From: Schaalia sp. HMT-172
GTDB taxonomy: Bacteria > Actinomycetota > Actinomycetes > Actinomycetales > Actinomycetaceae
Assembly (NCBI RefSeq): GCF_030644365.1
Contig: NZ_CP130058.1
Span: 1,302,001 to 1,366,000 of the forward strand
Direction of reading: 5' to 3'
Length of the DNA: 64,000 bases
Each line of letters begins with the position of its first letter. Within the stretch, counting starts at the first letter, position 1. Of the stretch, positions 550-60,411 are shown in pieces. The notes beneath the pieces are model-generated. The model was not told where the DNA came from. It did not search any database and saw only the letters and a list, made by a program, of their open reading frames with translations. The translations under genes were made by a program, and so were the position numbers.

Positions 550-2532
550 ATGATGTCCACGCAGGGTCTGCTCGACGGTTTCGACCCGCCTGCCACACGC
601 AGCGCGGAGGTCGCCCGCGTGCTCGTCGACGTGGATCTGGCTCACATGGACCGGCCGCTCGACTACCTCGTCCCCGACGGACTCGTTGACCAGGCCACGG
701 TCGGCTCTCTCGTTCGTGTGCGCTTCTCCGGCAACCGCGTTGACGGCTGGATTATCGAGCGCACCCGCCGCGAGGTGAGCGACGGCGTCGGCCGTCTCGA
801 GGCCGTCGTGTCGGCAACGCCCGTGCTCACGCCCTCCCTGTACGAGGCCGCACGCCGCGTTGCGTCACGTTTCCTTGCCACCACCTCCCAGGTGCTCTCA
901 CTTGCGCTGCCGCCCCGGCACGCGCGCGCGGAGAAGGACGTGCTAGCCAGTGCGCCTGGCGCGTGGCCTCTCGTTGATAGCCCGGCTGCAGGGGAGGGAT
1001 GGCGCGCATATTCGGCCGGTCAGGCCCTGCTGTCGCGACTGGCGGCGGGGGAGAGCCCCCGCGCCATCGTCACCTCCCTGCACCCTCACCTGCGTTCGTG
1101 TCTGTCGGAAGCTGTGGCCGCAACTGTGTCATCGGGGCGCAGCGTCATAGTGATCACGGCGACCGGCGAGCAGGCCACGCGCGTGGCCCACGACCTCGAG
1201 CAGGATCTCGCCGTTCCCGCGGTCGTCAGCGGAGGAGAGGTGAGTGCCGAGGAGCGTTACCGCGTTCACGTCGCCGCTTCCCTGGGCCGCGTTCCCGTCG
1301 TGGTGGGTACTCGCTCGGCCGCGTGGGTTCCCTGCGCGTCCCTCGGGCTCATCATCATCCTTGACGATGGGGACGATCGTCTGCGCGAGCGTCGTTTTCC
1401 TCGCTGCGATGCCCTCGACGTGGCCGTGCAACGCTGCGCGGTTGAGGGCGCCGGCCTACTCGTCCTGTCCGCGTCCCGTTCGGTCAAGGCTCAGGCTCTC
1501 GTCCGCTACGGTTGGGCGGTGAGTGTCGATCCCACCGTGCACGCGCTGCGCGAGGCTACGCCGCGCGTGCACCTGCACGGGCAGGTTGAGGCACAACGAG
1601 AGGGAGCCGGCGGACACATGCGCATCCCGCAGGCCGCCTTACGCATGATTCGCCAGGGCCTGCGCGACGGGCCGGTCCTTATCCAGGTGGCGTCCGCAGG
1701 CTACTGGCCGACCGTCGTGTGCCGCCGCTGCGAGGAGCATGCGCGCTGCCCGCGATGCTTCGGGCCTCTGACGATGAGCGCCGACGAGGCGCTTTCGTGT
1801 GCCTGGTGCGGGCGCGAACCTAGCTCTTGGCGGTGCCCCCACTGCTCTGGGCGAGAGCTGCGCGGTGCCCGCGTGGGTTCCTCGCGCACGGCTGAGGAGA
1901 TCGCTCGAAACCTGCCTGAGGCCTCCGTGCTCGAGTCTTCGGCTGCCCATCGCATCAGTCGCACGCTTCCGTCTCGCCCCACCGTCATCGTTGCGACGGC
2001 GGGCGCCGAACCCCACGTCGACGGCGGCTACGCCTGCGGGATCGTTCTCGATGCCGCAGCCCTCGCCGGGCGGGCGGAGCTGTGGGCCCCCGAGGAGGCT
2101 GCGCGGCGCTGGCTTCGCGCCCTCTCGCTCGTGCGCCCGGGCCGCCCGGGCCTCGTCGTCGGGACGATTCCTGAGGCTTTGGGCCAGATGCTGGTTCGTT
2201 GGTCACCCACCGACTACGCGGAGCGACTTCTCGACGAGCGTGAGGCCCTCGGCTTTTTCCCCGCGTGCACGATGGTTGCCCTGGACGGCCCCGCTGCGCA
2301 GGTGCGCCAGGTCGCTGACCAGGCCGTGCGCGAGGGCGGTGCACAGCTCGTAGGTACGGTGGCTGTGCCAGCTACCCGTGAGGGTGAGGAGAACCAGGTG
2401 CGTACCCTCGTGCGTGCTCCGCTGCCGGACAGCGCGCACATGCTCGCCTCGCTTGCCGACATTCGGCGCTCGCGTAGCGCACGCAAGGCACCACTGGTGA
2501 AAATGAGCGTGAACCCACCGGAGCTCTTCTAA
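550..2532 (+). CDS. priA: Primosomal protein N' (PriA), degenerate actinobacterial form
   Basis: This 660-residue protein has the PriA layout: an N-terminal 3'-DNA-binding domain (about residues 20-110), a RecA-like core, and a zinc-binding module with eight cysteines in CxxC pairs at about residues 391-437. PriA reloads the replisome at stalled forks. The helicase core has lost its canonical motifs: no GxGKT Walker A is visible where expected, and the DEEH box is replaced by a DDGD-like sequence. The same degeneration is known in other actinobacteria, so the protein probably acts as a structural restart factor rather than an ATP-driven helicase. Two in-frame ATGs (550 and 553) are possible starts. 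fmt follows 34 bases downstream. Confidence 0.9.
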   Translation: MMSTQGLLDGFDPPATRSAEVARVLVDVDLAHMDRPLDYLVPDGLVDQATVGSLVRVRFSGNRVDGWIIERTRREVSDGVGRLEAVVSATPVLTPSLYEAARRVASRFLATTSQVLSLALPPRHARAEKDVLASAPGAWPLVDSPAAGEGWRAYSAGQALLSRLAAGESPRAIVTSLHPHLRSCLSEAVAATVSSGRSVIVITATGEQATRVAHDLEQDLAVPAVVSGGEVSAEERYRVHVAASLGRVPVVVGTRSAAWVPCASLGLIIILDDGDDRLRERRFPRCDALDVAVQRCAVEGAGLLVLSASRSVKAQALVRYGWAVSVDPTVHALREATPRVHLHGQVEAQREGAGGHMRIPQAALRMIRQGLRDGPVLIQVASAGYWPTVVCRRCEEHARCPRCFGPLTMSADEALSCAWCGREPSSWRCPHCSGRELRGARVGSSRTAEEIARNLPEASVLESSAAHRISRTLPSRPTVIVATAGAEPHVDGGYACGIVLDAAALAGRAELWAPEEAARRWLRALSLVRPGRPGLVVGTIPEALGQMLVRWSPTDYAERLLDEREALGFFPACTMVALDGPAAQVRQVADQAVREGGAQLVGTVAVPATREGEENQVRTLVRAPLPDSAHMLASLADIRRSRSARKAPLVKMSVNPPELF

Positions 2533-2553
2533 GTCCGAGGCCACGCGGTGCCG

Positions 2554-2559
2554 TAAACT
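2554..2559 (+). promoter_or_regulatory. -10 box of fmt, probable leaderless promoter
   Basis: TAAACT lies seven bases before the fmt GTG. Transcription would begin at or next to the start codon, and no Shine-Dalgarno is present. Confidence 0.5.
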
Positions 2560-2566
2560 GGCGCCC

Positions 2567-3502
2567 GTGCGCATTATTTTTGCTGGAACTCCCCACGCCG
2601 CAGTGCCCACACTGCGCGCCCTGCTTGCCTCCCCCCATGAGGTCGCCCTCGTGATCACCCGTCCGCCAGCGCGGCGCGGACGGGGTAAAACGCTGTATCC
2701 GTCTCCCGTGGCCGAGGTTGCCGCACAGGCTGGCATTGAGCTGGCGGAGACGACGACAGTGAAGACGCCGGAGATCGGCGAGCGCATCGCTGCCGTGGGA
2801 GCCGACCTCGGTGTCGTCGTGGCCTACGGGGGGCTCATCCCTCCCGCCGTCCTGGCGATGCCGACACACGGATGGGTGAACCTACACTTTTCTGACCTGC
2901 CCCGATGGCGCGGCGCAGCGCCTGTCCAGTGGGCGATACGCGAGGGTGACACTGAGACGGCCTCGTGCGTCTTCAACCTTGAAGAGGGGCTCGATACCGG
3001 CGACGTCTACTCGCGCGTCGCGGTGCCGATCGGGCGCGAGAGCGCCGGCGAGCTGCTGAGCGCGATGGCGCAGGCGGGTGCCGCCCAAGCCCTTGACGTC
3101 GTCGATAAGCTCCAGGCTGGGACCGCGGTCGCGCTCCCGCAGAGCGCGACGGGCATCACGCACGCACGCCGCCTGGAGCACGCCGACGGTTACGTCTCCT
3201 TCACGCGCAGCGCCGAGGAAGAGGATCGCATTATCCGCTCCGTCACGCCCAACCCGGGCGCCTACACGATCCTGCCCGGCGGCACGCGCATGAAGCTTGG
3301 CGTGGCGATGCCGGTGGAGCGCGATGACCTGGAGCCAGGCCAGCTGGACATCACGAAGAAGCAGGTGAGCGTCGGCTGCGCGGGCGGCGCGCTCATCCTC
3401 GGTCAGGTCGCACCCGCCGGTAAGTCCTGGATGGACGCCGCGGCGTGGGCTCGTGGCGCCAGGCCGGATGTCACGATGCGCATCGGTGGTGCGAGACGAT
3501 GA
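2567..3502 (+). CDS. fmt: Methionyl-tRNA formyltransferase
   Basis: Transfers a formyl group from 10-formyltetrahydrofolate to initiator Met-tRNA in the cytoplasm. The 311-residue length is normal. The N-terminal Rossmann fold carries the catalytic triad at N105, H107 (in an LPRWRGAAP context) and D143 (GLDTGD), matching N106/H108/D144 of the E. coli enzyme. A C-terminal OB-like tRNA-binding domain follows. The start is GTG without a Shine-Dalgarno, consistent with a leaderless mRNA. Its stop overlaps the rsmB ATG (ATGA), so both are translationally coupled, as in many bacteria. Confidence 0.97.
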   Translation: MRIIFAGTPHAAVPTLRALLASPHEVALVITRPPARRGRGKTLYPSPVAEVAAQAGIELAETTTVKTPEIGERIAAVGADLGVVVAYGGLIPPAVLAMPTHGWVNLHFSDLPRWRGAAPVQWAIREGDTETASCVFNLEEGLDTGDVYSRVAVPIGRESAGELLSAMAQAGAAQALDVVDKLQAGTAVALPQSATGITHARRLEHADGYVSFTRSAEEEDRIIRSVTPNPGAYTILPGGTRMKLGVAMPVERDDLEPGQLDITKKQVSVGCAGGALILGQVAPAGKSWMDAAAWARGARPDVTMRIGGARR

Positions 3503-4971: not shown

Positions 4972-4974
4972 CAT
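4969..4974 (+). promoter_or_regulatory. -10 box of rpe, probable leaderless promoter
   Basis: TAGCAT ends seven bases before the rpe ATG and overlaps the rsmB stop codon. It would allow rpe to be transcribed independently of fmt-rsmB. Confidence 0.45.
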
Positions 4975-4981
4975 ATGCGTT

Positions 4982-5644: not shown

Positions 5645-5663
5645 TCGCGACTACGCCAATGAG

Positions 5664-5689: not shown

Positions 5690-5748
5690 TTCGTGCACCG
5701 CGAACTCCTCTCGCAGCCACACGCCCCGCGTGGCACAATGGCAAGCGA

Positions 5749-5872
5749 GTACTCCGGGGTCGGTGAAAGTCCGAACCGGCGGTGATAGTCCGCGACCCGC
5801 CCTCACCGAACGAGGGCGGTTGAGCCGGTGAAATTCCGGCGCCGACGGTTACAGTCCGGATGGGAGGAGTGC
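5749..5872 (+). ncRNA. FMN riboswitch (RFN element)
   Basis: All conserved RFN segments are present in order: GGGGTCGGTGAAAGTCC, ACCGGCGGTGATAGTCCGCGACCC, a variable hairpin, GAGCCGGTGAAATTCCGG, and GACGGTTACAGTCCGGATGGGAG. The closing helix P1 pairs 5749-5755 with 5866-5872 over seven base pairs. FMN binding is expected to repress the downstream importer genes. The 3' strand of P1 contains GGAGGAG, a strong anti-SD match, so control may act on translation or on transcription termination. Its presence is the main evidence that the downstream transporter carries riboflavin or a related flavin. Confidence 0.96.
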
Positions 5873-5931
5873 ATGAGGCGCATGCGTGCGTCTGCTGTGC
5901 TGCGCGTACCCCCGGTGTCGGAAAGTAAGTC

Positions 5932-8745: not shown

Positions 8746-9673
8746 AACCGTGTCCTTGGCCATCGTGCGCCTGTCCTCGATGATCGCGTGGATCGCCGAG
8801 CATCCGGGGGTGCACGTGGATGAGTTGTGCGCGCACTTTGGCCGCACGCGCCGCCAGGTGCGGCGCGACATCGAGTACGTGGCCTCCGTTGGTGATTCGC
8901 TGCCCGGGCAGTCCTTCGAGGTCGACTGGGGACTGTTCGAGGAGGAGCAGCGCGTGTCGCTGCGCGCGACGCTGGGGGCGAGCGCGCCCCTGCGTTTGTC
9001 GGAGGTGGAGGCTCAGGCACTCCTGATCGGCCTGTCGGCCATCGGCCCTCTCCTGGCGCCGGATGTGGCTGCGCACCTGCCCCATGCGGCCCTCGTCGTG
9101 AGTGCCCTGGGCGGGCTAGAGGAGGCGTGCGCCCAGGGCCGCATTGACGCCTCGCCCGTCCCGGCCTCGTCCACCATCGCCGACGCTCTGCGCGAGGCCC
9201 TCGCGAAGGCTCAGCGCGTGTCTTTCGACTACGTGTCTGCCCAGGGACGCTTCTCACACCGCGTCGTCGACCCGTGGTCGTTGGAGGCGAGTTCGACCGG
9301 CTGGCTGCTGCGCGGATGGTGCACGCAGGCGCAGGGGCCTCGCACGTTTTCGCTCGCGTCGATGTCGAACGTCGGCATCGTCGGACCGCGCGTTCGCTCT
9401 CCGCGCCGGGTGCACGACGACGCACCGACCTGGACGCTCGACGTGGACCGCACCGCCCGCTGGATCGCCGACGAGTACGCGGGCAGCGTCGTCGATGAGC
9501 TCCCCGATGGGGGAGCGCGCATCCGCGTGCCCGTGTGGAACGAGGAGTGGGGGCTGAGCCTGCTCACCGACATCGCCGCGCACCTGCGCGCCGTGACGCC
9601 CGACCGTCGCGCCCTGGCAGGCACGCGTGCGCGTTCGATCATCACCGAGTGGAGTCGGGAGGAAGAATCGTGA
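8738..9673 (+). CDS. pafC: WYL-domain transcriptional regulator PafC
   Basis: The 311-residue partner of PafB, with the same winged helix plus WYL architecture. The start at 8738 lies inside the end of pafB, and GGAGGAAA just upstream provides a Shine-Dalgarno. Its stop overlaps the helicase start as GTGA, so pafB, pafC and the helicase form one coupled unit. In mycobacteria tatA and tatC lie between pafC and helY; here they are absent. The overall job is predicted to be activation of DNA-repair genes under replication stress. Confidence 0.88.
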   Translation: MPETVSLAIVRLSSMIAWIAEHPGVHVDELCAHFGRTRRQVRRDIEYVASVGDSLPGQSFEVDWGLFEEEQRVSLRATLGASAPLRLSEVEAQALLIGLSAIGPLLAPDVAAHLPHAALVVSALGGLEEACAQGRIDASPVPASSTIADALREALAKAQRVSFDYVSAQGRFSHRVVDPWSLEASSTGWLLRGWCTQAQGPRTFSLASMSNVGIVGPRVRSPRRVHDDAPTWTLDVDRTARWIADEYAGSVVDELPDGGARIRVPVWNEEWGLSLLTDIAAHLRAVTPDRRALAGTRARSIITEWSREEES

Positions 9674-18425: not shown

Positions 18426-19193
18426 TTAGACGCCGTCGTCACTGAGCGATGACACGGCCACCGCCAGCATGTCTCGATGCAGCTCGGCGAACAAATCACC
18501 CAACTCGATCGCTCGCGCACGCGCCCGTTCGCGGTCCGCGCCACGGCCTCGTCCCCTCTGGGAAGACACCGTCTGATCAATGATATCCGCGCTGCGCTCC
18601 GCGCCCTGGCGCACCGCGCGCAACACCCGCACATCCACGCCCGAACCCTCTAGACGCGCGATCGTCGACACCGCCTGCACGCACCGTGCCGGGAAGTATC
18701 CCGCCAGATCCGGGGTGATCAGGCCGAGACGCGAATAGCGCTCCAGCGTGTCCATATCGACACCCGTCAGGTCCGACAGGTCAGCGGCGGGGATCGCTCG
18801 GCGGCCGCCCAGCGACACCGTCTGGCCCTCCGAGGACACCACCTGCGCAACGCGACGCCGCGTCGGCGTATGTCCGGCGTCGAGGGCATCGAGCTGGGTG
18901 CGAATCACGCTGAGCGGAGTGAAAGAATCGCGCTGTTCGGACAGGACGTATCGCAGACGCTCCACGTCGGCGGCAGAGTACTTGCGGTAACCGGCGCCCG
19001 TGCGCGCGGGGCTGACGAGGCCTTCGCCCTCCAGGTAGCGCACCTTCGACAGCGAGATCGCAGGAAACTCCGTCTTGAGCTCCTCGACCACCCGGCCGAT
19101 GGAAAGCACGGGGGCGTGATCGGCATCGTGCGGCCACGAGGTCGCCCCGGGCTCGGGGTGCGAGTCGCGGATGCGTGCGACGGACGCCGACAC
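18426..19193 (-). CDS. ftsR: MerR-family regulator FtsR (Rv1828 homologue)
   Basis: A 255-residue MerR-family protein with winged-helix motif LSIGRVVEELKTEFPAIS and RYLEGEGLVSPARTGAGYR, closely resembling mycobacterial Rv1828 and corynebacterial FtsR, which activates ftsZ. A second, C-terminal effector-like domain follows (about residues 120-230). The GTG start at 19193 is one base after the garA stop, so it is co-translated with garA, the usual actinobacterial order. It is expected to control cell-division genes; no ftsZ is in the window. Confidence 0.85.
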   Translation of the reverse strand: MSASVARIRDSHPEPGATSWPHDADHAPVLSIGRVVEELKTEFPAISLSKVRYLEGEGLVSPARTGAGYRKYSAADVERLRYVLSEQRDSFTPLSVIRTQLDALDAGHTPTRRRVAQVVSSEGQTVSLGGRRAIPAADLSDLTGVDMDTLERYSRLGLITPDLAGYFPARCVQAVSTIARLEGSGVDVRVLRAVRQGAERSADIIDQTVSSQRGRGRGADRERARARAIELGDLFAELHRDMLAVAVSSLSDDGV

Positions 19194-20884: not shown

Positions 20885-21735
20885 GAGGTGCCTCCGTGAG
20901 TGGGGTCGGAAACGGGCGAAGCATACTGGGGGACGGAGGGCGCGAGCGCGTCCATGGTCAGGGAGGAGACGACCTTGGTGGACACGGTCATGCCAGTGAC
21001 GGACTGCGCGGCGGAGAGGTAGTCCCCCGTATTACCGCGCACGAGGGCGACGGACAGGGCGTTCGAGTCTCCGATGGCGCTAACCTCGTAGGGCGAGGAG
21101 ATGGGGGTGACGTTCACCAGGATGGCAGAGCCGGCGGTGCGCACGAATGTGGCCGGCCCAATCCTCTGCCCGTTGATGGAAATCGCTTCGGCCCCCGCTC
21201 CCCACAGGGCGTTGACGACCATCGCCAGATCCTGGTCACGCACGGCACCGCTCCCCTTCCCGGGGGCCGCCCGATCCGTGAGCGTCACGATAATGCCGGG
21301 GCCCGAGGCAGGAGTCGTCGCGACCTGGAGGGCCAGCGTCCCATCGGTCCCGGCGGCGTTAGCGGGGTCGGAGTATTGCTCGATGGCGTGCCCCAGCGAC
21401 TGTACCTCCGAGTCCAGGGCGGCCACGTTCTCGCTACGAGTCGAGGCCTGTTGCTTCAAATCCGCCTTCACGTCGCCCGCGGGAGCGCGCAGCGACGCGG
21501 TCGCCACGACCGCACCGAAGCCGAGCGCGACGGCCACCGCGAAGACGCCAACCCGCCCTATCAGGGAGGCGGGACGCGGCCCGTGCTCCGCACGGTAGTG
21601 CTCGTATCCGGCGTCGAGAGGGTTGGCCAGAAGCGAGGTGAGCAGCGACATCGAGGCCGCGGGGTCCACCGACGAGGCCTCGATGGCCTCGGGCGCCGCC
21701 CCCGCGGTCCCGCCGCGCTCCTCCGGCCTCGTCAC
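20881..21735 (-). CDS. DUF881 membrane protein (second copy, upstream of sbp)
   Basis: A 284-residue DUF881 protein with one transmembrane helix (about residues 63-83), a short coiled coil, and the extracytoplasmic domain with GPGIIVTLTD, ALWGAGAEAISINGQRI and SSPYEVSAIGD. It is a paralogue of the DUF881 gene downstream of sbp. The GTG at 21735 overlaps the TGA at 21734-21732 that ends pepN in its restored frame (GTGA). This coupling argues that the pepN 3' end is, or recently was, translated. Alternative downstream starts (for example the Met of MSLLTSLLANP) are possible. Confidence 0.87.
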   Translation of the reverse strand: MTRPEERGGTAGAAPEAIEASSVDPAASMSLLTSLLANPLDAGYEHYRAEHGPRPASLIGRVGVFAVAVALGFGAVVATASLRAPAGDVKADLKQQASTRSENVAALDSEVQSLGHAIEQYSDPANAAGTDGTLALQVATTPASGPGIIVTLTDRAAPGKGSGAVRDQDLAMVVNALWGAGAEAISINGQRIGPATFVRTAGSAILVNVTPISSPYEVSAIGDSNALSVALVRGNTGDYLSAAQSVTGMTVSTKVVSSLTMDALAPSVPQYASPVSDPTHGGTS

Positions 21736-29837: not shown

Positions 29838-29875
29838 CCCCGGCCTCGTCTCCGTTGACGAGGCCGGGGCCGTTT
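29838..29875 (+). terminator. Rho-independent terminator built from an inverted motif pair
   Basis: Perfect 13-base arms CCCCGGCCTCGTC and complement, six-base loop, followed by CCGTTTTG. Both arms are copies of the dispersed motif. Confidence 0.85.
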
Positions 29876-30204: not shown

Positions 30205-30240
30205 CGCGAGGACACAAACCTGTCCTCGCGACTCTTTTGT
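30205..30240 (-). terminator. Terminator of tRNA-Pro
   Basis: Downstream of the tRNA on the minus strand, ten-base arms (30205-30214, 30221-30230) enclose a six-base loop and are followed by a CTTTTTG tract. Confidence 0.85.
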
Positions 30241-30313
<73 letters not shown>

Positions 30314-35372: not shown

Positions 35373-36261
35373 CGCCGCTGTCTCCTTCCATCGTCCGTGC
35401 ATTCTTCCCCGTCGACGAGGCCGTGGCGCCCACGGCGGCGGGCGTGTCCTCGGGGCGCGTGCCGCGTGGCGCCTCGTCAATGTCGATGTCGCTCGCGTCC
35501 ACCTCGGCTCTCCACTGGATCGAAAGTGTCCCCAGCGCCCCCTCCTGGATGAACTCGACGGCCCCTCGCCGGAAGAGTTCGAGGAGCGCCAAGAAACGCG
35601 ACACGATGACGGCGCGCGTGGCGGCATCGGCGATGAGCTGCCGGAAGGTCATCTCCCCTGCCGACGCGAGCTTGTCGGCGACGACGATGGCCTGCTCGCG
35701 CACAGGCACGACCGGGTCGTGCAGGTGGGTGACCTGGACGGTGGGCGCCGACTGGGAGAGGGCGTCGGCGGCGAGGCGGGCCAGGTCCTCGGGGCTGGTG
35801 AGCCAGGTGAGCTCGGGCAGGAGCGTGGCGAAGTGGGGCTCGAGGGCGACGTCGCGGGCCACGTAGGAGGCGCACGCAACCATGCGCGCGTCGATCTCCT
35901 TCGCCGCTTCTTTGAAGGCGCGGTATTGCAGGAGTCGGGAGAACAGGAGGTCCCGGGCCTCCAGGTCCGCCTCGCTCACGTCTTCCTCCTCGTCGAGGCG
36001 GGGCAAGAGGTGGGCGGCTTTCATGTCGAGAAGCGTTGCGGCGACGACCAGGAATTCGGTCGTGCGTGACAGGTCGGGCGAGGCCTTCATGAAGGCGATG
36101 AACTCGTCCGTCACCTGGGCGAGTGCCACCTCGGTAATGTCGAGCTTTTTGCGCGCGATCAGGGACAGGAGCAGGTCGAAGGGCCCCTCGAAGACGGGCA
36201 GCCTCACGGCGAAGAGCTCGAACTCCCCCTGAATCTCGATCGGTTCAGGCGGCGTCGCCAC
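35365..36261 (-). CDS. scpA: Chromosome segregation and condensation protein ScpA
   Basis: The 298-residue kleisin of the SMC complex. The N-terminal helical domain (FEGPFDLLLSLIARKKLDITEVALAQVT) binds the SMC neck and the C-terminal winged helix binds the head. The last 40 residues (after WRAEVDASDIDIDEAP) are a low-complexity tail that contains one copy of the dispersed motif. GTG start, overlapping parA by 17 bases; no other good start is present. Confidence 0.94.
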   Translation of the reverse strand: MATPPEPIEIQGEFELFAVRLPVFEGPFDLLLSLIARKKLDITEVALAQVTDEFIAFMKASPDLSRTTEFLVVAATLLDMKAAHLLPRLDEEEDVSEADLEARDLLFSRLLQYRAFKEAAKEIDARMVACASYVARDVALEPHFATLLPELTWLTSPEDLARLAADALSQSAPTVQVTHLHDPVVPVREQAIVVADKLASAGEMTFRQLIADAATRAVIVSRFLALLELFRRGAVEFIQEGALGTLSIQWRAEVDASDIDIDEAPRGTRPEDTPAAVGATASSTGKNARTMEGDSGDD

Positions 36262-37122: not shown

Positions 37123-38073
37123 TCATTGCCGTGCAATCTCGTCGGTGCCACGCGCCCGGGGGTGCGAGAGCGTAAAGACCTCGCGCAGGGCCGCGGCGCT
37201 CACCGCCGTGTAGATCTGGGTCGTGGCCACCGAGGCGTGTCCGAGCAGCTCCTGCACCTCGCGCACGCTCGCCCCACCCTCGAGCAGGTGAGTCGCGAAG
37301 GAGTGGCGCAGCGTGTGGGGCGACACCCTCGACCCCAGCTGCGCGGCTTCGGCGGCCCTGCGGATCGCGGTCCACGCGCTCTGGCGAGAGAGGGGGGCGC
37401 CCCGAGAGTTCAGAAAGAACGCGGTCGCGCCACGGCCTCGTGCCGCAAGGGCCGGACGCGCACGAACCCGGTACGCCCCCAGCGCCTCGACCGCGAAGGA
37501 ACCGACGGGGACGATGCGTTCCTTGCGCCCCTTCCCGAACAGGCGGACCACCGGGACGTCGCCGTCAAGGTCAAGGTCATCGGCGCTCAGGCTCACTGCC
37601 TCGGACACGCGCGCGCCCGTCGCGTACAACAGCTCCAGGAGCGCACAGTCACGCAAACCGATGGGCGAATCGTCCGCGTGGGCGACGTCGAGCAGGCGCC
37701 CCACCTCCTCGACCGTCAGGGCCTTGGGCAGATGGCGTCCCGCACGGGGGGCGCACAACTGGGCGGAGGGGTCGACCCCGACAAGCCCTTCCGTGAGCGC
37801 GTACTTGTGCAGGCCACGAATGGCAGCGGATGCGCGGGCGACCGACGAGGCCGCGGCAGGGTGGCCCGTCACCTCGCCAGAGGCGAGGCGCATCGTGTAG
37901 TCCTCGATGTCGCGCACACTCACCTCGGCGAGGCTCGCGACGCCGCGGTCGGCGAGGTCACGGACGTATCGCAGGGCATCACGCCGATAGTTGGAGACGG
38001 TGTGCGCCGATGCGCCCTTCTCGACGCGCAGATAGTCCACCCACTCATGCACGAGGGCTTCCAAGGACGTCAT
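37123..38073 (-). CDS. xerD: Tyrosine recombinase XerD
   Basis: Resolves chromosome dimers at dif with XerC. The 316-residue protein has an N-terminal SAM-like core-binding domain and the catalytic residues R155 (GARVSE), K181 (GKGRK), H253-xx-R256 (HTLRHSFATHL), H279 (LGHAS) and Y288 (QIYT). It begins the xerD-parA-scpAB-rluB-tyrA-cmk operon. The ATG lies six bases after a TACTCT box, with no Shine-Dalgarno. One copy of the dispersed motif falls in a surface loop region around 37433 (GRGAT). Confidence 0.95.
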   Translation of the reverse strand: MTSLEALVHEWVDYLRVEKGASAHTVSNYRRDALRYVRDLADRGVASLAEVSVRDIEDYTMRLASGEVTGHPAAASSVARASAAIRGLHKYALTEGLVGVDPSAQLCAPRAGRHLPKALTVEEVGRLLDVAHADDSPIGLRDCALLELLYATGARVSEAVSLSADDLDLDGDVPVVRLFGKGRKERIVPVGSFAVEALGAYRVRARPALAARGRGATAFFLNSRGAPLSRQSAWTAIRRAAEAAQLGSRVSPHTLRHSFATHLLEGGASVREVQELLGHASVATTQIYTAVSAAALREVFTLSHPRARGTDEIARQ

Positions 38074-40354: not shown

Positions 40355-40456
40355 TCATAGTCATGTGTGGGTCCTCGGTCCCGTCCCTCTCCCTCGCGGG
40401 CGAAGTGTTCGGGCCACGGCCTCGTCCCCCTCCCCGAGTGAACGGAGCGTTACCTC

Positions 40457-41983
40457 GTGACCAACGCGATTCCCACCCTGCGCGATCCGCAAGACCGCAG
40501 GCTTCCGCGCATCTCGCCGCCCTGCGGCCTCGTCATCTTCGGCATCACTGGTGACCTCGCGCGCAAGAAGCTCCTGCCCGCCATCTACGACCTGGCCAAC
40601 CGCGGTCTGCTGCACCCCGCGTTCTCCCTGACCGGCTTCGCGCGCCGAGACTGGAGCCCCCAGGACTTCGAGGAGTACGTGCGCGCGTCCATCGAGGCGC
40701 ACACCCGCACCGGCTTCAACGAGGGGACGTGGAATCAGCTCCGATCGGGCCTGCGCTTCGTCTCCGGCACCTTCGATGACCCGGAAGCATACCGTCGCCT
40801 CGCCGACACCGTCGCCGAGCTTGACCGGGTGCGCGGCACCGGCGGCAACCATGCCTTCTACCTGTCGATTCCGCCGTCGTACTTCCCCGTCGTGGCCAAG
40901 CACCTGTCCGACACGGGCCTGAACAAGCGACAGGGCCGCGAGTGGCGCCGCGTCATCATCGAGAAGCCCTTTGGCCACAACCTTGAGTCGGCGCGCGAGC
41001 TGTCCGACGTGATCTCGCAGATCTTCGATGAGCAGGATGTCTTCCGCATTGACCACTACCTGGGCAAGGAGACGGTCCAGAACATCATGGCCATGCGCTT
41101 TGCGAACGCCATGTTCGAGCCCCTGTGGAAGGCCAACTACGTCGACTCCGTGCAGATCACGATGGCCGAGGACATCGGCATCGGCACGCGCGCGGGCTAC
41201 TACGACGGCATCGGCGCGGCGCGCGACATCATTCAGAACCACCTCCTCCAGCTCATGGCACTGACCGCCATGGAGGAGCCCGTTCACTTCACGCCCGAGG
41301 AGATCCAGGCCGAGAAGGAAAAGGTACTGTCCGCCGTGAGCCTGCCCGAGGACCTGGCCGCCGACACGGCCCGCGGACAGTACGCGAGCGGCTGGCAGGG
41401 CGGCGACAAGGTGCGCGGCTACCTCGAGGAGGACGGCATTCCCTCCGACTCGACGACCGAGACCTTCGCCGCGATCAAGCTCTTCGTGGATACGCGACGC
41501 TGGGCTGGCGTGCCTTTCTACCTGCGTGCCGGCAAGCGCCTGGGCAAGCGCGTCACCGAAATCGCGGTGATCTTCAAGCGCTCCGCGCACGTGCCTTTCG
41601 GCAATTCTGCCCTCAGCGAGTCCGCCCAGAACGCGCTTGTCATCCGCGTGCAGCCTGACGAGGGCCTGACCCTCAAACTCGGCGCGAAGGTACCGGGCAC
41701 ATCGATGCAGGTGCGCGACGTGACCATGGACTTCGCCTACGGCCATGCCTTCACCGAAGATTCGCCAGAGGCCTACGAGCGCCTCATCCTCGACGCACTT
41801 GTCGGCTCCGCGCCCCTCTTCCCGCACCAGCGCGAGGTCGAGGCCTCGTGGAAGATTCTCGACCCGATCCTGTCCTTCTGGGAGACCCAGGGCCAGCCCG
41901 AGCCCTACACGCCGGGCACGTGGGGTCCCCAATCCGCGCACGACATGCTGGCCCGCGACGGCCGCTTCTGGAGGCTCCCGTGA
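40457..41983 (+). CDS. zwf: Glucose-6-phosphate 1-dehydrogenase
   Basis: First step of the oxidative pentose phosphate pathway. The 508-residue protein has the NADP motif GITGDLARKKLLPA (residues 29-42), the substrate site RIDHYLGKE at 197-205, and EKPFGHN. The GTG start has GGAGCG upstream. A copy of the dispersed motif lies at 40417-40425 in the leader. Its stop overlaps the opcA start (GTGA). Confidence 0.97.
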   Translation: MTNAIPTLRDPQDRRLPRISPPCGLVIFGITGDLARKKLLPAIYDLANRGLLHPAFSLTGFARRDWSPQDFEEYVRASIEAHTRTGFNEGTWNQLRSGLRFVSGTFDDPEAYRRLADTVAELDRVRGTGGNHAFYLSIPPSYFPVVAKHLSDTGLNKRQGREWRRVIIEKPFGHNLESARELSDVISQIFDEQDVFRIDHYLGKETVQNIMAMRFANAMFEPLWKANYVDSVQITMAEDIGIGTRAGYYDGIGAARDIIQNHLLQLMALTAMEEPVHFTPEEIQAEKEKVLSAVSLPEDLAADTARGQYASGWQGGDKVRGYLEEDGIPSDSTTETFAAIKLFVDTRRWAGVPFYLRAGKRLGKRVTEIAVIFKRSAHVPFGNSALSESAQNALVIRVQPDEGLTLKLGAKVPGTSMQVRDVTMDFAYGHAFTEDSPEAYERLILDALVGSAPLFPHQREVEASWKILDPILSFWETQGQPEPYTPGTWGPQSAHDMLARDGRFWRLP

Positions 41984-42923: not shown

Positions 42924-43661
42924 ATGGTGGCCGTGCACACGCTTGAGGTCCTGCCGACAGTCGAGGAACTCAACCAGGCCGTGGGCCGAGCGTTCCTCGC
43001 TCGTCTGCGCACGCTCATCAACGAGGCCGAAGCCGGTTCTCGCGTCGACCTGGCCATCTCCGGTGGCGCGATCACGACGAGCCTGTTGCCCTCGTTGCTT
43101 CCATTTGTTGGCGAGGTCGATTGGTCACGCGTGCGCGTGTGGCTGGTTGACGAGCGTTATGTGCCAGCGGGCGACGAGGATCGCAACGACGATCAGGCGT
43201 GGGAGGGGTTCTTCCGCGCGGCGTCCGGCGTCGAGTTGGTCCGCATGCCGACCTCGGATGCGTCCGCGCCAGGTGCCGGTTCTCTCGACGCAGCGACCAC
43301 GGCATTCGCCAACACGTGGCGCGAGCTTATGGGTGATCGCTCCTTCGACATTGCTTTGATCGGTATGGGGCCCGACGGGCACATCTGTTCCCTGTTCCCC
43401 GGGCGTGTTGACCTGGAGGAGCCCTCCCCCATCCTGGCGATCCGCAACTCCCCCAAGCCGCCGCCCGAGCGCATCACGGTGTCGATGCCCATCATGCGTG
43501 CGTGCGGTGAGGTGTGGCTGACGACTGCGGGTTCCGCGAAGGCGGATGCCCTCGGACGAGCCTTCGCAGGTGCGTCGCCGTTTGACCTTCCCGTCGCGGG
43601 TATCCTCTCCCCCTCGACTCGCGTTTACCTCGACGAGACTGCAGCCGCGCGGATTGCGTAG
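42924..43661 (+). CDS. pgl: 6-phosphogluconolactonase
   Basis: Hydrolyses 6-phosphogluconolactone, the product of zwf. The 245-residue protein of the DevB/NagB-like fold shows ISGG near residue 46, WLVDERYVP, and IALIGMGPDGHICSLFPG. It begins two bases after opcA with GGGAG upstream. A terminator hairpin follows. 6-phosphogluconate dehydrogenase is not in the window. Confidence 0.94.
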   Translation: MVAVHTLEVLPTVEELNQAVGRAFLARLRTLINEAEAGSRVDLAISGGAITTSLLPSLLPFVGEVDWSRVRVWLVDERYVPAGDEDRNDDQAWEGFFRAASGVELVRMPTSDASAPGAGSLDAATTAFANTWRELMGDRSFDIALIGMGPDGHICSLFPGRVDLEEPSPILAIRNSPKPPPERITVSMPIMRACGEVWLTTAGSAKADALGRAFAGASPFDLPVAGILSPSTRVYLDETAAARIA

Positions 43662-50511: not shown

Positions 50512-51506
50512 TACTCTCTCCCAATGTCGCGGTGCATGACGCGCACCGAATGTCCGTGCTCGCGCAAGCGAGCGGCGATGGCCTCGGAGCATGCGACGGA
50601 GCGGTGCTTTCCGCCCGTGCAGCCGACGGCGATCGTGACGAATGGCTTCAATTCTGCCAGATAGCCGGCGAGCATGGGGGCCAACAAGTCGGCATAGCCG
50701 AGAGCGAATTCGCGGGCACCGGGCTGGGAGAGGACGTAGTCGGCGACGGCCTGGTCTTTTCCGGTGAGGTGACGCAGTTCGTCGACCCAGTAGGGGTTCT
50801 TCAGGAAGCGGACGTCGACGACGTGATCGGCGTCGAGGGGCAGCCCGTGCTTGAAACCGAAGGACTCGACGGTGACCTGCAGGGGGCGCTTCTCCCCCGC
50901 CACGATGTCTCGGATGCGTCGGGTGAGGTCGTGCACGCTCATGGCGGAGGTGTCGATGACCTCGTCGGCGGCGCGGCGCAGCGGGGCAAGCAGACGAATC
51001 TCTGCCTTGATGCCGTCCATGAGGGTGCCCGCCCCCTGGAGGGGGTGGGGGCGCCGGTTGGACTCGTAGCGTCGCACAAGGGCCTGGGGGCTTGCCTCCA
51101 GGAAGATGATGCGGTAGGCGATGCCGGCTCCCTTGAGTTGTTCGAGGGTCGCGTCCAGCGTGCGGAAGAAGGTGCGAGAACGCACGTCGACGCCGACGGC
51201 CAGGCGGTGTACGCCGGCAGCGGGGTCGTTGGACATCATGCCGACCAGGGCGGGCAGCATCGACGGGGGCAGGTTGTCCACGACGTACCAGTCGAGGTCT
51301 TCGAGGGCTCGCGCGGCGCCCGTGCGGCCCGCTCCCGAGTAGCCGGTGATGATGAGGACTTCGTTAGAGGCGCGGGGCTCGTACTTGACACGCATCATGT
51401 CGCGCACGGGGATGCCCTCGGGGAAGGTGCGCGGGTTTTCCTCCCTCGCGGACGAGGCCGGGGCGTCCGCGGCGCGTGGCGCTTCCTGGGGTGCGTGATC
51501 GGTCAT
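50511..51506 (-). CDS. rapZ: RNase adapter RapZ / YvcJ-family nucleotide-binding protein
   Basis: A 331-residue P-loop protein. The nucleotide site is GYSGAGRTGAARALED (about residues 54-69), and the C-terminal domain has GCTGGKHRSV (about residues 300-309). In E. coli RapZ senses UDP-GlcNAc precursors and guides RNase E; in Gram-positives the role is less clear. The first 45 residues are a low-complexity extension that contains a copy of the dispersed motif (ADAPASSAR). Confidence 0.93.
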   Translation of the reverse strand: MTDHAPQEAPRAADAPASSAREENPRTFPEGIPVRDMMRVKYEPRASNEVLIITGYSGAGRTGAARALEDLDWYVVDNLPPSMLPALVGMMSNDPAAGVHRLAVGVDVRSRTFFRTLDATLEQLKGAGIAYRIIFLEASPQALVRRYESNRRPHPLQGAGTLMDGIKAEIRLLAPLRRAADEVIDTSAMSVHDLTRRIRDIVAGEKRPLQVTVESFGFKHGLPLDADHVVDVRFLKNPYWVDELRHLTGKDQAVADYVLSQPGAREFALGYADLLAPMLAGYLAELKPFVTIAVGCTGGKHRSVACSEAIAARLREHGHSVRVMHRDIGRE

Positions 51507-52772: not shown

Positions 52773-54784
52773 GGTGTGTCCTCCCTTGACGATGCTGCAA
52801 GCCTATCGCGGATCGAAGCAGCGAGGGCGGGTCCCACGCCCTTAACCTCGGCAATCTGCTCGAGACTCGCCTCCCGAATCCGCTTCACGGAGCCGAAATG
52901 CTTGAGCAACGCCGCCTGGCGCGCGGGTCCAAGCCCCGGGATGGAGTCCAGCACCGAACGCCGCTGAGCCTTCGAGCGCCTCTTGCGATGCTTCGTGATC
53001 GCGAAGCGGTGGGACTCGTCGCGCAGATACTGGAGCAGATACAAAGCCTCCGAGGTGCGCGGCAGGATGAGGGGGAACTCGTCGCCGGGAATCCACACCT
53101 CCTCCAGGCGCTTGGCCAGGCCAACGACGGGCACGTCCGCGCCCACCGCGTCCAGGGCGGCGCGAGCGGCGTTGACCTGGGGCAGGCCGCCGTCCACAAC
53201 GACCAGGTCGGGCCTGTACGAGAAACGCTTGGGACGCCCGGTCGTCTCGTCGATCGGGCCGGAGGCGAAGGCGACGCCATCCTCGTCCTCGCCCTTGACG
53301 CCGGCCTCCTCGGCGAGGAGCCGCGAGAAGCGACGGGTGAGGACCTCGTTCATCGCGCTCGTGTCGTCGGGCGTGCCGTTTCCGTCCTCGCCGCGGATGT
53401 TGTAGGTGCGGTACGCGTCCTTACGCGGCATACCGTCCTCGAAGACCACCATTGAGGCAACCTGGTTCTCCCCGCCCGTGTGCGAGACGTCGTAGCACTC
53501 GATGCGCAGGGGCGCGCCCGGCAAATCCAGGTTTTCCGCAAGCTGCTCGAGCGCCTTCGAGCGCGCCGTAATATCTCCCGCGCGCTTCGTGCGGTGCAGG
53601 GCGAGCCCCTGACGGGCGTTCTCCGTGACTGTCTCCATGAGCTGGGCCTTCGGGCCGCGCTTGGGCACGTGGATCGACACGGACGCGCCGCGGATCTGTG
53701 CCAGCCACCGCGCGATGGTCTCCTTTTCCTCGGGTTCAACGGAGACGAGCACTTCGCGCGGGATCGCCGAGGTCGGGGTGTGCGCGACGTCGTCCACGCT
53801 CACCGCCGCCACCTTCGTCGCACTCCCCGCCCCGGCCTCGTCCATCGACGCCGAGGAATACACCTGCTCGAGGAGGCGGGACATGAGCGCCTCATCCCCC
53901 GCCCCATCCACGCGCTCAATCACCCAGCCGCGCGTACCGCGGATGCGCCCGCCGCGCACGTGGAAGACGTAAACGGCGGCATCCAGGTCGTCGCTGACGA
54001 GAGAGAACACGTCCGCGTCCGACCCGTCGTCGAGCACGACCGCGTTGCGCTCGAGCACCGTGCGCAGCGCCTTGACGTCGTCGCGCAGCTTCGCGGCGCG
54101 CTCGAAGTTCAGCTCCGCCGACGCCTGGCGCATCTGCTCCTCGAGGTCCCGGATCACCGGGCCCGTGCGCCCCTCCATGAACTGGCACAGCTCCTCAGCG
54201 AGCTCGCGATGCTCCTCCATGGAGATGCGCCCCACGCACGGCGCCGCGCACTTGTCGATGTAGCCGAGCAGGCACGGACGCCCCTGAGCCTTCGCACGCT
54301 GGAATACGCCCGCCGAGCACGAGCGCATTGGGAAGACACGAAGGAGCTGATCGATCGTGTCGCGAATCGCCCACACCTGCGTGTACGGACCGAAGTAGCG
54401 TGACCCGGCCCTCTTGCGCTCGCGCGTGACCTGCACGCGAGGGAAGCGCTCCCCCATCGACACCGCCAGGTAGGGGTAGGACTTGTCGTCCTTAAACATG
54501 ACGTTGAAGCGCGGATTGAACTCCTTAATCCACGTGAACTCCAGCGTGAGGGCCTCCACCTCGGAGCGCACGACGGTCCACTGAACGGCGCTCGCGGTCG
54601 TCACCATCTGCTGGGTGCGCGGGTGCAGGTTCGCCAGGTCTTGGAAGTAGTTGGTGAGGCGATTGCGCAGGTTCTTGGCCTTGCCGACGTAGATGACGCG
54701 CCCGTGAGGGTCGGAGAATCGGTAGACGCCCGGCGAGGTCGGAATGTCTCCCGTGCGGGGCCTGTACGTCGAAGGATCTGCCAC
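52769..54784 (-). CDS. uvrC: Excinuclease ABC subunit C
   Basis: The dual-incision nuclease of nucleotide excision repair, 671 residues. It has an N-terminal GIY-YIG domain (GVYRFSDPHGRVIYVGKAKNLRNRL), a cysteine-containing segment (CSAGVF...CLLGYIDKCAAPC), a UVR motif near residues 205-240, an RNase H-like domain with CYDVSH, and C-terminal helix-hairpin-helix motifs (IPGLGPARQAALLKHFG). The GTG start lies six bases after a TACGCT box, with no Shine-Dalgarno. Confidence 0.97.
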   Translation of the reverse strand: MADPSTYRPRTGDIPTSPGVYRFSDPHGRVIYVGKAKNLRNRLTNYFQDLANLHPRTQQMVTTASAVQWTVVRSEVEALTLEFTWIKEFNPRFNVMFKDDKSYPYLAVSMGERFPRVQVTRERKRAGSRYFGPYTQVWAIRDTIDQLLRVFPMRSCSAGVFQRAKAQGRPCLLGYIDKCAAPCVGRISMEEHRELAEELCQFMEGRTGPVIRDLEEQMRQASAELNFERAAKLRDDVKALRTVLERNAVVLDDGSDADVFSLVSDDLDAAVYVFHVRGGRIRGTRGWVIERVDGAGDEALMSRLLEQVYSSASMDEAGAGSATKVAAVSVDDVAHTPTSAIPREVLVSVEPEEKETIARWLAQIRGASVSIHVPKRGPKAQLMETVTENARQGLALHRTKRAGDITARSKALEQLAENLDLPGAPLRIECYDVSHTGGENQVASMVVFEDGMPRKDAYRTYNIRGEDGNGTPDDTSAMNEVLTRRFSRLLAEEAGVKGEDEDGVAFASGPIDETTGRPKRFSYRPDLVVVDGGLPQVNAARAALDAVGADVPVVGLAKRLEEVWIPGDEFPLILPRTSEALYLLQYLRDESHRFAITKHRKRRSKAQRRSVLDSIPGLGPARQAALLKHFGSVKRIREASLEQIAEVKGVGPALAASIRDRLAASSREDTP

Positions 54785-54790: not shown

Positions 54791-54796
54791 AGCGTA
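54791..54796 (-). promoter_or_regulatory. -10 box of uvrC, probable leaderless promoter
   Basis: TACGCT on the minus strand ends six bases before the uvrC GTG. Confidence 0.5.
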
Positions 54797-54847
54797 CGAG
54801 GCCGTGGCTGGGAGCGCCCGTCACCCTCTGTGGGCGTGCTCTATGTC

Positions 54848-56395: not shown

Positions 56396-56411
56396 TCTAA
56401 CCGTCACTTGA

Positions 56412-58377: not shown

Positions 58378-58423
58378 TCTCACCACGCACGGCGCACAGC
58401 GCCCACCCCACGAAAGGACCGCA

Positions 58424-60340
58424 ATGACGGTACGCAGGCTCGCCGACGGCTCATGGGAGTCGATCGCCACGCGCGAGGCCACCGAGGACATGAACCTACC
58501 CAAGATGCTCCATCAGCGCGTCGAGCGCCACCCCGGGCAGGTCGCGATCGAGCGCCGATCCAACGTCGGCGCATGGCGCCGCGTGACCATGGAGACGTTC
58601 CTCGGCGAAGCCGACTCTATCGCGCGTGGCCTCATCGGCATCGGCCTCGAGGCGGGCGACCACCTGGCGATCCTGGCCCCGACCTCGTATGAGTGGGCCC
58701 TCATCGACGTGGCCGCCCTGTCCTGCGGCGCGATCACCGTGCCCATCTACGAGACGGATTCCGCGCAGCAGATCGCCCATATCCTCGCAGACGCCGACGT
58801 GCGCATCGTCATCACGGCCACCACGCAGCAGGCCGAGTTGGTCGAGTCCGTGCGCACCGACGGCGTGCGCCATATCCTCTCCCTCGACCGCGGCGCCGAG
58901 CGCGTCCTGACCGGCGCCGCCCAGGGGGTCACGGTCGAGCAGGTTCGCGAGCGCACCGACGCCGTGACGCTTCACGACGAGGCGACGGTCATCTACACTT
59001 CCGGCACGACCGGTATGCCCAAGGGCGTCGTACTCACGCACGGCAACTTCATCTCGCCGATGCTGCAGGCCTACGACTTCCTGCCCGTCCTCATCAACGA
59101 CCCGAAGTCGCGCTCGTTGCTCTTCCTGCCGGTCGCCCACGTCCTGGCGCGCTTCGTCATGTACTGCCTGCTCGCCGGTCAGGGAGTCACCGCTTTCTCC
59201 CCGGACACCCGTAACCTCGTCAACGACATCGCGACCTTTAAGCCGACGATGCTCCTCGTGGTTCCGCGCGTCATGGAGAAGGTCTACAACGCTGCCGCCG
59301 CGAAGGCCGGTGGAGGCGTGAAGGGGCGCATGTTCTCCTGGGCCGCCAAGCAGGCGCGCGCCCTGTCCAAGGCCACCGCCTACGTGGACTCTCCCCTGCC
59401 CGAGTCCGCGGTCGCTGGTCCCGGCCCCGACACGACGCCCGTCCCCGATGCCTCGGCGATGCCCTCCCCTGGCCCGTCGTCCGCGCTGAAGCTGCGCGCC
59501 CGCGTCGCCGACGCGCTCGTCCTGTCGAAGGTCCGCGCGATCCTGGGCCCGAACCTGCACACGATCATCTCTGGTGGAGCTCCCCTGGCCCTCGACCTGG
59601 CAAACTTCTATCGGGGCTTGGGCATCACGCTCCTCCAGGGCTACGGCCTGTCCGAGACGACCGGCCCTATCTCCGTGGAGACGCCGCAGGACTTCCCCCC
59701 GGACTCGGTGGGCTTCCCCTGGCCAGGCAACCGGATGACGATCGCCCCCGACGGCGAGCTGCTCGTGCGCGGTATCTCCGTGTCGAAGGGCTACCACAAC
59801 CTGCCCGAGGCCACGGCCGAGGCCTACGTCGACGGCTGGTTCAAGACGGGTGACCTCGCCTCGATTGACGATCGCGGGCACCTGCGTATCACGGGCCGTA
59901 AGAAGGAACTTATCGTCACCGCGGGCGGCAAGAACGTGTCCCCCGAGATCCTCGAAGAATCCCTGTCGACGCACCCGCTCATCGCGAACATCATCGTGGT
60001 CGGCGACAACCGCCCCTACATTGGCGCGCTCATCGCCCTGGACACGGAGATGCTGCCCGAGTGGCTCTCGACCCACGGCCTGCCCGTCGTGGATGCGGCG
60101 CAGGCCGCGAACCTGCCCGAGGTGCGCGAGTCTCTCGAGAAGGCGATCGCCCGCGCCAACAAGGCCGTCTCGCGCGCCGAGTCGATCCGCCGCTACCGCA
60201 TCGTGAACGCGGCCTTCACCGTGGAGAACGGCTACATGACGCCCTCCCTCAAGCTGAAGCGCCGCCGCGTCCTGGCCGACTACGCCGACGAGGTCGACGC
60301 CCTGTACGCGTCGGGCGAGGCCGCGAAGAAGCAGGAGTAA
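58424..60340 (+). CDS. fadD: Long-chain acyl-CoA synthetase (second of two)
   Basis: A 638-residue paralogue of the preceding gene, with P-loop YTSGTTGMPKG (191-201), the same QGYGLSETTGPIS and TGRKKELIVTAGGKNVSPE segments. It differs by a Pro/Ser/Ala-rich insertion of about 30 residues between the KQARALSK helix and LVLSKVR (around 59390-59500), probably a flexible loop. A GAAAGGA Shine-Dalgarno precedes the ATG. The two enzymes probably differ in substrate range; gene duplication is evident. Confidence 0.9.
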   Translation: MTVRRLADGSWESIATREATEDMNLPKMLHQRVERHPGQVAIERRSNVGAWRRVTMETFLGEADSIARGLIGIGLEAGDHLAILAPTSYEWALIDVAALSCGAITVPIYETDSAQQIAHILADADVRIVITATTQQAELVESVRTDGVRHILSLDRGAERVLTGAAQGVTVEQVRERTDAVTLHDEATVIYTSGTTGMPKGVVLTHGNFISPMLQAYDFLPVLINDPKSRSLLFLPVAHVLARFVMYCLLAGQGVTAFSPDTRNLVNDIATFKPTMLLVVPRVMEKVYNAAAAKAGGGVKGRMFSWAAKQARALSKATAYVDSPLPESAVAGPGPDTTPVPDASAMPSPGPSSALKLRARVADALVLSKVRAILGPNLHTIISGGAPLALDLANFYRGLGITLLQGYGLSETTGPISVETPQDFPPDSVGFPWPGNRMTIAPDGELLVRGISVSKGYHNLPEATAEAYVDGWFKTGDLASIDDRGHLRITGRKKELIVTAGGKNVSPEILEESLSTHPLIANIIVVGDNRPYIGALIALDTEMLPEWLSTHGLPVVDAAQAANLPEVRESLEKAIARANKAVSRAESIRRYRIVNAAFTVENGYMTPSLKLKRRRVLADYADEVDALYASGEAAKKQE

Positions 60341-60377
60341 CCCGGCAAGGCACGCGGACCCTCCGTCAACACGAAGC

Positions 60378-60411
60378 GGCCCCGGCCTCGTTCATCGACG
60401 AGGTCGGGGCC
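60378..60411. terminator. Bidirectional terminator built from an inverted motif pair
   Basis: Fourteen-base arms (one G-T pair) with loop TCATCG. The left arm is an exact CCCCGGCCTCGT copy of the dispersed motif. It lies between convergent genes. Confidence 0.8.

Follow-up and report, generated by a model that had tools for sequence, protein, structure and literature searches.

What accounts for a 9-bp word that recurs 19 times in 64,000 nucleotides of an actinobacterial chromosome? The stretch analyzed here, hereafter the window, comprises positions 1302001-1366000 of the 2,533,704-bp single-contig genome of Schaalia sp. HMT-172 ("the genus" below being the one that includes Schaalia), and the word is the 9-mer CGGCCTCGT. 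Judging from its distribution, its conservation and its dialects, this word is quite probably a DNA uptake sequence (DUS) of independent origin, a tag of self-DNA that would be read by a Flp/Tad or Com protein. In the window, 11 exact copies lie on the forward strand and eight on the reverse strand, against a chance level of 2.19 (100 dinucleotide shuffles, maximum 7), and 11 of the 19 extend to the 12-mer CCMCGGCCTCGT, six in its CCCC form and five in its CCAC form, a number that Markov models of order 2 to 5 put at 0.05-0.14 for each form. The word has a high GC content and suits common codons, for which reason synonymous-codon shuffling was added: the window genes hold 14 9-mers versus 5.15 (0 of 100 shuffles reach 14) and six 12-mers versus 0.45 (maximum 3 in 100 shuffles). 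A preliminary description of the window had listed 17 positions, all of which are exact matches, and had missed two others, 37845 and 62278, both on the reverse strand. The one or two copies that it expected by chance are too few for the codon background just given, its estimate of about ten extended sites agrees with the 11 found, and the residues that it read at these sites (PASS, GRGRG and ATASS) are those encoded there. Five site-bearing proteins were scanned for Pfam domains: in four of them (Der, ScpA, a RapZ-like protein and a MerR-type regulator) the site is outside any domain, and in UvrC it is inside one.

The word is by no means confined to the window. A pattern search of the entire genome finds 673 copies of the 12-mer, split 341 to 332 between the strands, or about one per 3.8 kb, whereas the same pattern read backward occurs 1+0 times. 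The consensus around the 9-mer is gCCMCGGCCTCGTc, and the flanks beyond about 14 bp are nearly uninformative. Base-by-base reading covered about a quarter of the genome, and placement relative to genes was determined in a 464-kb sample consisting of the window plus 20 stretches of 20 kb. Genes were called with a simple codon-score script that missed or misplaced some of them, and the class termed intergenic therefore contains some unannotated coding DNA. Among the 120 12-mers of this sample, 71 lie in genes, one at a gene edge and 48 between genes, which amounts to 0.599 per kb intergenic versus 0.188 per kb genic (edge included), a 3.2-fold difference. Within genes, the 71 observed copies compare with 5.5 after synonymous shuffling (maximum 8 in 20 shuffles), a 13-fold excess, and the codon-driven word that the preliminary description had considered as an alternative was accordingly rejected. 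For the 9-mer, the corresponding figures are 133 and 47.6, and codon usage therefore accounts for about a third of the genic copies. Genic 12-mers run with the gene in 39 cases and against it in 32, and their reading frames are restricted, mostly to xPAS/xTAS and DEAG/DEAV. Sites are scarcest in the fifth of genes whose codon bias is strongest (0.075 per kb versus 0.190-0.256 in the three least biased fifths), and low-GC genes have 0 sites in 12 kb, too small a sample to judge. The same sample also contains other repeats of about 12-21 copies, such as AGGTTATTCAACGA, TGGCTGAGGCTTCC and GCATGCAATTCCC, as well as ATGCAATTCC-type words, which are mostly intergenic.

The sites are also retained between relatives to a degree that the background is not. 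When 244 kb of the genome was aligned to that of G148, a relative (213 kb at 82.8% identity), 33 of 37 full sites could be aligned, and 20 of these 33 are CCMCGGCCTCGT there also, including 11 of 21 genic and 9 of 12 intergenic sites. By comparison, when background 12-mers of matched GC content are judged on the corresponding 11 positions, 17.6% of the genic ones and 17.9% of those not wholly genic are conserved, as are 23.2% of 9-mers of permuted composition; against a background of 0.18, the retention of 20 of 33 has a binomial p of 6e-8. Genic sites with only the core 9-mer behave similarly, 17 of 38 aligned copies being kept as a 9-mer or better versus 22.4% (p 0.002). Four full sites show an A/C exchange at the M position relative to G148, alone or together with other changes (three A to C, one C to A). 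For the 9-mer sites of the window, 8, 6 and 4 of 17 are kept in G148, G155 and G160, respectively, versus 0.219, 0.180 and 0.146. The preliminary description had made its proposal depend on conservation of the extended motif in close relatives, and it is conserved, both in these alignments and in copy number: of 213 genomes counted in the family, those with >150 copies of the 12-mer all belong to the same genus (12 of 35 genomes: G000, G143, G146, G147, G148, G155, G160, G162, G164, G165, G168 and G173), while counts of 0-31 were obtained for the 178 genomes belonging to other genera.

Genus members with few copies proved to have variants of the same word (CGCCCTCGT, CGTCCTCGT and CGGCCTCGG), as revealed by a k-mer search. 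These dialects are variants of a shared core, roughly CGNCCTCG, and take the place of the word in other members of the genus. They were evaluated by comparing all 9-mers with synonymous shuffling in genes and with a Markov model between genes, drawing on 13 genomes of the genus and one of another genus (G006), each sampled over 80-464 kb. A motif variant is the top 9-mer in 8 of the 13: CGGCCTCGT in G000 and G155, CGCCCTCGT in G146, G169 and G153, TCGTCCTCG/CGTCCTCGT in G166, CGGCCTCGG in G158 and TGACGAGGC in G175. CGCCCTCGT is also among the first four words in G159, G157 and G151, and no motif variant emerged from this test in G006. Genome-wide counts follow the same lines. CGCCCTCGTC has 508-1245 copies in G146, G151, G153, G154, G156, G157, G169, G171, G172 and G173 versus 132 in the Schaalia sp. 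HMT-172 genome, but this 10-mer has a codon background of up to 418 copies in other genera, and the shuffling test is therefore the better evidence; CGTCCTCGTC has 593 copies in G166 and 785 in G146, and CGGCCTCGGCA has 127, 100, 108 and 114 copies in G152, G158, G161 and G163 versus 1-35 in the other 31. In a ComEC tree of 30 genus rows, labeled by hand for dialect according to the counts and lacking G152, and three Actinomyces rows, the nine rows of the G dialect form a clade (100/99), and the three of the GG dialect form a second one (100/100), with 10 of 30 inner branches weak. These dialects, which the preliminary description had not foreseen, provide what we regard as the strongest support for a resemblance to uptake sequences.

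Outside the genus, the picture is different. In 16 pooled Actinomyces loci, synonymous shuffling gives no excess for CGGCCTCGT (29 versus 29.4), CGCCCTCGT (21 versus 28.9) or CGTCCTCGT (37 versus 35.2), and the fourth of the CGNCCTCGT words, CGACCTCGT, stands at 41 versus 28.1. Likewise, 20 pooled loci of other Actinobacteria, mainly Microbacteriaceae, have 23 copies of CGGCCTCGT versus 26.3. Actinomyces does exhibit an excess of GCTCATCG (34 versus 10.9 in G006; 92 versus 36 in the 16 pooled loci, although it is not the top word there), which resembles the Schaalia core with A for G and may be a distant or decayed dialect. Separately, an 80-kb sample of G152 contains about 47 copies of an intergenic repeat with TATCAAGAG and CAAGAGGAT, possibly a CRISPR array.

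A further characteristic of the word is its arrangement in inverted pairs. In the 464-kb sample, we identified 83 cases of a core 9-mer with an inverted partner no more than 50 bp away and no more than two mismatches. The 11 pairs without mismatch comprise ten between genes, one at a gene edge and none in genes. Pairs with one mismatch are intergenic in six cases and genic in 17, and those with two are intergenic in six, at edges in three and genic in 40. Spacers make up only about a sixth of the sample, yet the exact pairs are confined there (with the one at an edge), whereas the imperfect pairs within genes look like chance. All 17 intergenic or edge pairs with 0-1 mismatch sit no farther than 47 bp from the predicted 3' end of a gene. 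In the window, the hairpin at 29838-29869 has a predicted energy of -33.7 kcal/mol (z -6.0) and that at 60377-60412 one of -34.9 kcal/mol (z -6.8). The preliminary description had interpreted both as terminators, and a consensus scan agrees for the former, which has a T-rich tail, and fails for the latter. Enrichment between genes and as inverted pairs near gene 3' ends is what would be expected of an uptake sequence, with a predicted role of such pairs in termination.

The machinery that an uptake sequence would require is encoded throughout the genus, and the competence genes that the preliminary description had proposed to look for are present. ComEC (PF03772) and ComEA were each detected in 33 of the 35 genomes of the genus, among them all 32 good ones, the two misses (G150 and G172) both being incomplete, and T2SSE/Tad ATPases in all 35 at E 1e-3, 34 of them over the cut-off. 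In the Schaalia sp. HMT-172 genome, comEA (990061-990795) lies directly before comEC and encodes 245 aa with SLBB and helix-hairpin-helix domains, with a TIGR01259 match below its cut-off. No type IVa prepilin (N_methyl, PF07963) was detected in any of the 35 genomes at E 0.1 with this short profile, which matched in 8 of 14 controls. The genome has two Tad loci. Tad1 encodes an Ssd/CpaE-like protein, TadA, a T2SSF protein, a DUF4244 protein (taken as the Flp pilin), a TadE-like protein and an Rv3654c-type TadE-like protein, whereas Tad2 encodes TadA, two T2SSF proteins, a 56-aa protein (taken as the Flp pilin) and TadE/F-like proteins. As a hint to the reader, we considered the pI of six Tad pilin-like proteins, among which the TadF-like protein of Tad1 alone is basic (pI 8.6), which is not decisive. 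Tad2 was also considered as the reader. Sorting its presence ourselves on ATPase hit score and profile range, we obtained no Tad2 ATPase hit in G152, G158, G161 and G163, which have the CGGCCTCGG dialect, or in G170, which has no motif; there was also no hit in the fragmented G156, with its 997 C-word copies, or in G150 (70% complete). The match between Tad2 and dialect is confounded by descent, because a single clade unites G158, G161 and G163, and G170 is placed with G175.

Based upon these features, several inferences can be made regarding how the word might function. As an uptake sequence, it would presumably be bound on free DNA by a surface protein of the Flp/Tad machinery or by ComEA, and DNA of the same clade would be favored over foreign DNA for entry via ComEA and ComEC; the likeliest candidate reader would be a TadE/TadF-type minor pilin or ComEA itself. 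Tagged alleles would be imported and recombined more often, which would build up the word and maintain it at tolerated places such as linkers, tails, spacers and terminator stems, and drift of the specificity of the reader would give rise to dialects. The window sites include some in terminal extensions of Der, ScpA and RapZ-like proteins, one in uvrC and others in spacers. Hundreds of copies above both chance and codon usage, strand balance, dialects with a shared core and competence genes are all observed here, and these are general features of DUS and uptake signal sequences (USS) according to the portions of PMC5031613 that were available. The resemblance to the uptake sequences of Neisseria and Pasteurellaceae suggested in the preliminary description is thus upheld, as a resemblance, by a word that exceeds codon usage, is conserved and has dialects.

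Several observations weigh against the word being an uptake sequence. Actinomyces also has ComEA and ComEC, yet lacks the word, and in its 16 pooled loci CGGCCTCGG is mildly in excess (113 versus 71). G170 yields no motif in the 9-mer test despite ComEA, ComEC and a Tad ATPase, with CTCATCACC, a weak word of 10 copies, as a doubtful candidate dialect. G149 and G144 show little in the way of a motif, the words of G151 (-log10 p 5.7) fail correction for all 9-mers, and the nine words listed for G152 in that test are all unrelated repeats, such that its assignment to a dialect rests on the k-mer search and the genome-wide CGGCCTCGGCA count. Genomes of the C dialect show only a 2-4 fold genic excess, and codon usage already yields its third of the genic 9-mers (47.6/133). 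The C and T words are not single clades and are spread over the remaining branches of the ComEC tree, the root of which is unsure because the Actinomyces outgroup fell within the genus beside the long-branched G144. A depletion of sites in foreign DNA did not emerge, given that genes of the least typical codon use are no poorer in them and low-GC genes amount to only 12 kb. Lastly, the reader is a matter of candidate proteins, and we found no uptake, binding or transformation data for Schaalia.

It is conceivable that the word is instead a chromosome-wide site of a cytoplasmic protein, be it a nucleoid organizer, a segregation or recombination factor, or a Chi- or KOPS-like site, with dialects that track this protein. 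High copy number, dispersal and conservation of sites would all be explained, and the dialects could equally follow a coevolving intracellular protein. However, Chi and KOPS sites show strand or replication polarity, and the word does not: strands are balanced and, when compared between half-chromosomes, reveal no replichore bias (Fisher p 0.36), which settles the check that the preliminary description had called for and led us to reject a polar site of this type. Similarly, matS or parS sites show ori-ter localization, but the ori-near half of the chromosome has 0.290 sites per kb versus 0.235 (p 0.27, with ori assumed at the contig start), which is no significant gradient, and an ori- or ter-localized site was rejected as well. 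The restriction of exact inverted pairs to spacers or a gene edge near gene 3' ends and the change of dialect within a genus both fit an uptake sequence better, and we consider a cytoplasmic reader unlikely.

Two further explanations dispense with a reader altogether. Context-dependent codon or mutational bias in GC-rich genes would be in keeping with the share of genic 9-mers that synonymous shuffling covers, the restricted frames and the modest genic excess of the C dialect, but it would have to account for a genic 12-mer at 13 times the shuffled level that is 3.2 times denser outside genes, for the conservation of 9 of 12 intergenic full sites against 0.18, and for pooled Actinomyces loci of similar or higher GC that lack an excess of CGGCCTCGT; we therefore regard such a bias as very improbable. 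Even less credible is the spread, by mobility or conversion, of a repetitive extragenic palindrome or a terminator stem. The intergenic pairs are indeed strong hairpins just past genes, one of the two in the window having a T-rich tail. REP and BIME elements, however, are intergenic only and have a longer conserved unit, whereas 71 of the 120 sampled 12-mers are genic and their flanks carry little beyond about 14 bp. Membership in these families was rejected accordingly, and it is the intragenic copies that disfavor this explanation. The individual sites of the window are compiled in Table 1.

Table 1. Copies of the word in the 64-kb window and their state in three relatives, followed by two unrelated elements.
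Element	Position	Strand	Setting	Relatives
Core 9-mer only	842..850	-	in CDS 550-2532	lost in G148, G155, G160
Core 9-mer only	2958..2966	+	in CDS 2708-3502	lost in G148, G155, G160
Core 9-mer (PASS)	9162..9170	+	in CDS 8738-9673	CCCCGGCCTCGT in G155; lost in G148, G160
Full 12-mer	18541..18552	+	in CDS 18426-19193 (-), MerR-type regulator, residues GRGRG outside HTH domain	12-mer in G148 and G155; 9-mer in G160
Core 9-mer only	21724..21732	+	start of CDS 20881-21735 (-)	lost in G148, G155, G160
Full 12-mer	26120..26131	+	Der/EngA (CDS 26041-27594), N-terminal extension, PASS ahead of first GTPase domain	lost in G148, G155, G160
Two full 12-mers, inverted	29838..29869	+	13-pair stem, T-rich tail, intrinsic-terminator-like; about 33 bp past CDS 29008-29805	no alignment in G148, G155, G160
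Full 12-mer	35415..35426	-	ScpA (CDS 35365-36261), C-terminal tail, ATASS	kept only in G148
Full 12-mer	37430..37441	+	in CDS 37123-38073 (-)	CCCCGGCCTCGT in G148 (A to C at M position); lost in G155, G160
Core 9-mer	37845..37853	-	in CDS 37123-38073	lost in G148, G155, G160
Full 12-mer	40414..40425	+	intergenic, upstream of CDS 40457-41983	full motif in G148 and G155 (A to C in G155)
Core 9-mer	40525..40533	+	in CDS 40457-41983	kept in G155, G160
Core 9-mer	43021..43029	-	in CDS 42924-43661	lost in G148, G155, G160
Full 12-mer	51452..51463	-	RapZ-like CDS 50511-51506, N-terminal extension (PASS)	lost in G148, G155, G160
Full 12-mer	53830..53841	+	uvrC (CDS 52769-54784, -), DEAGAG near aa 315	full motif in G148; 9-mer in G155
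Full 12-mer	54796..54807	-	just upstream of uvrC	CCCCGGCCTCGT in G148; lost in G155, G160
Full 12-mer (60380-60391, +) and imperfect inverted copy (one core mismatch)	60377..60412		16-pair hairpin without T-rich tail, between convergent CDS 58424-60340 (+) and 60433-60927 (-)	12-mer in G148; 9-mer in G160
Core 9-mer	62278..62286	-	in CDS 60936-63806	kept in G148, G155, G160
FMN riboswitch (Rfam RF00050, 102 bits)	5746..5875
tRNA-Pro (GGG)	30239..30313	-	shortly after the motif hairpin at 29838-29869

Another word, CGGCATCCG, is unrelated to that of Schaalia and was encountered elsewhere among the Actinobacteria. In seven of eight genomes that we take to be Microbacteriaceae, it occurs in 1825-2929 strand-balanced copies per genome (reversed control 80-170). 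Leifsonia CL147 has only 357 copies (control 95), and Sanguibacter, Promicromonospora and Georgenia have 183-241. In the 20 pooled loci, it is found 195 times versus 35 by synonymous shuffling, and 1 of 11 of its inverted pairs is wholly intergenic. It is possibly another uptake-like word or the product of a context-dependent bias.

With respect to the literature, our searches on uptake sequences in Actinobacteria, Actinomyces, Schaalia, Actinomycetaceae, Microbacteriaceae and Gram positive bacteria, and on the words as such, returned no report of the word in the open-licence sources, in the parts of them that were accessible, which is not proof of absence. We find it somewhat likely that Schaalia holds an independent uptake signal outside the Proteobacteria, in a Gram positive organism, with a Flp/Tad or ComEA reader and with dialects serving as barriers to exchange between species, in which case CGGCATCCG would represent a further origin. 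If this is true, self-DNA tagging would have arisen once more, in another phylum and with another type of pilus, and the strategy would be more general. It would also predict that Schaalia species are naturally transformable by word-bearing DNA, thus offering a practical route to the genetics of a group that, according to an excerpt of PMC10633639, includes a host of Saccharibacteria. Furthermore, several dialects in one genus would provide a handle for finding the reader by coevolution.

How does the Schaalia word compare with known systems? The nearest precedent for the machinery is Micrococcus luteus, in which, as far as the available sections of PMC4322843 describe it, transformation requires comEC as well as tad genes located in two loci, and a comEA ortholog is encoded. 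It resembles Schaalia in being an actinobacterium with Tad machinery, and it has no other type IV pilus genes, but it differs in that this paper ascribes no uptake word to it, the terms 'uptake sequence' and 'uptake signal' occurring 0 times in the main text (PMC4322843). Among the families that do tag their DNA, the Neisseriaceae and Pasteurellaceae are the only ones known according to passages of a 2025 paper (PMC12616744). The Pasteurellaceae USS is similar in its 9-bp core, two dialects and genome-wide dispersal (parts of PMC12616744 and PMC5031613), but its sequence is AAGTGCGGT and the reader predicted in these sources is the type IV minor pilin ComN/PpdA, whereas only pilin genes of the Flp/Tad type were found in Schaalia. 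The word is also not the Neisseriaceae DUS proper, an ATGCCGTCTGAA-type 12-mer with a CTG core and ComP as its reader: the sequences are unrelated, the Schaalia core lies near CCTCG rather than CTG, the host is an actinobacterium, there are 673 copies in Schaalia versus the 2245-5918 given in the consulted part of PMC3630211, and no N_methyl prepilin was found in the 35 genomes and therefore no ComP. Despite these distinctions, there are parallels with the DUS, as described in the same part of PMC3630211: both are short words in many copies that occupy tolerated positions in genes and form inverted pairs associated with terminators, which in Schaalia are predicted ones, and both exist as dialects with a conserved core that are congruent with phylogeny, in Schaalia for the G and GG dialects, alongside a few relatives without the word.

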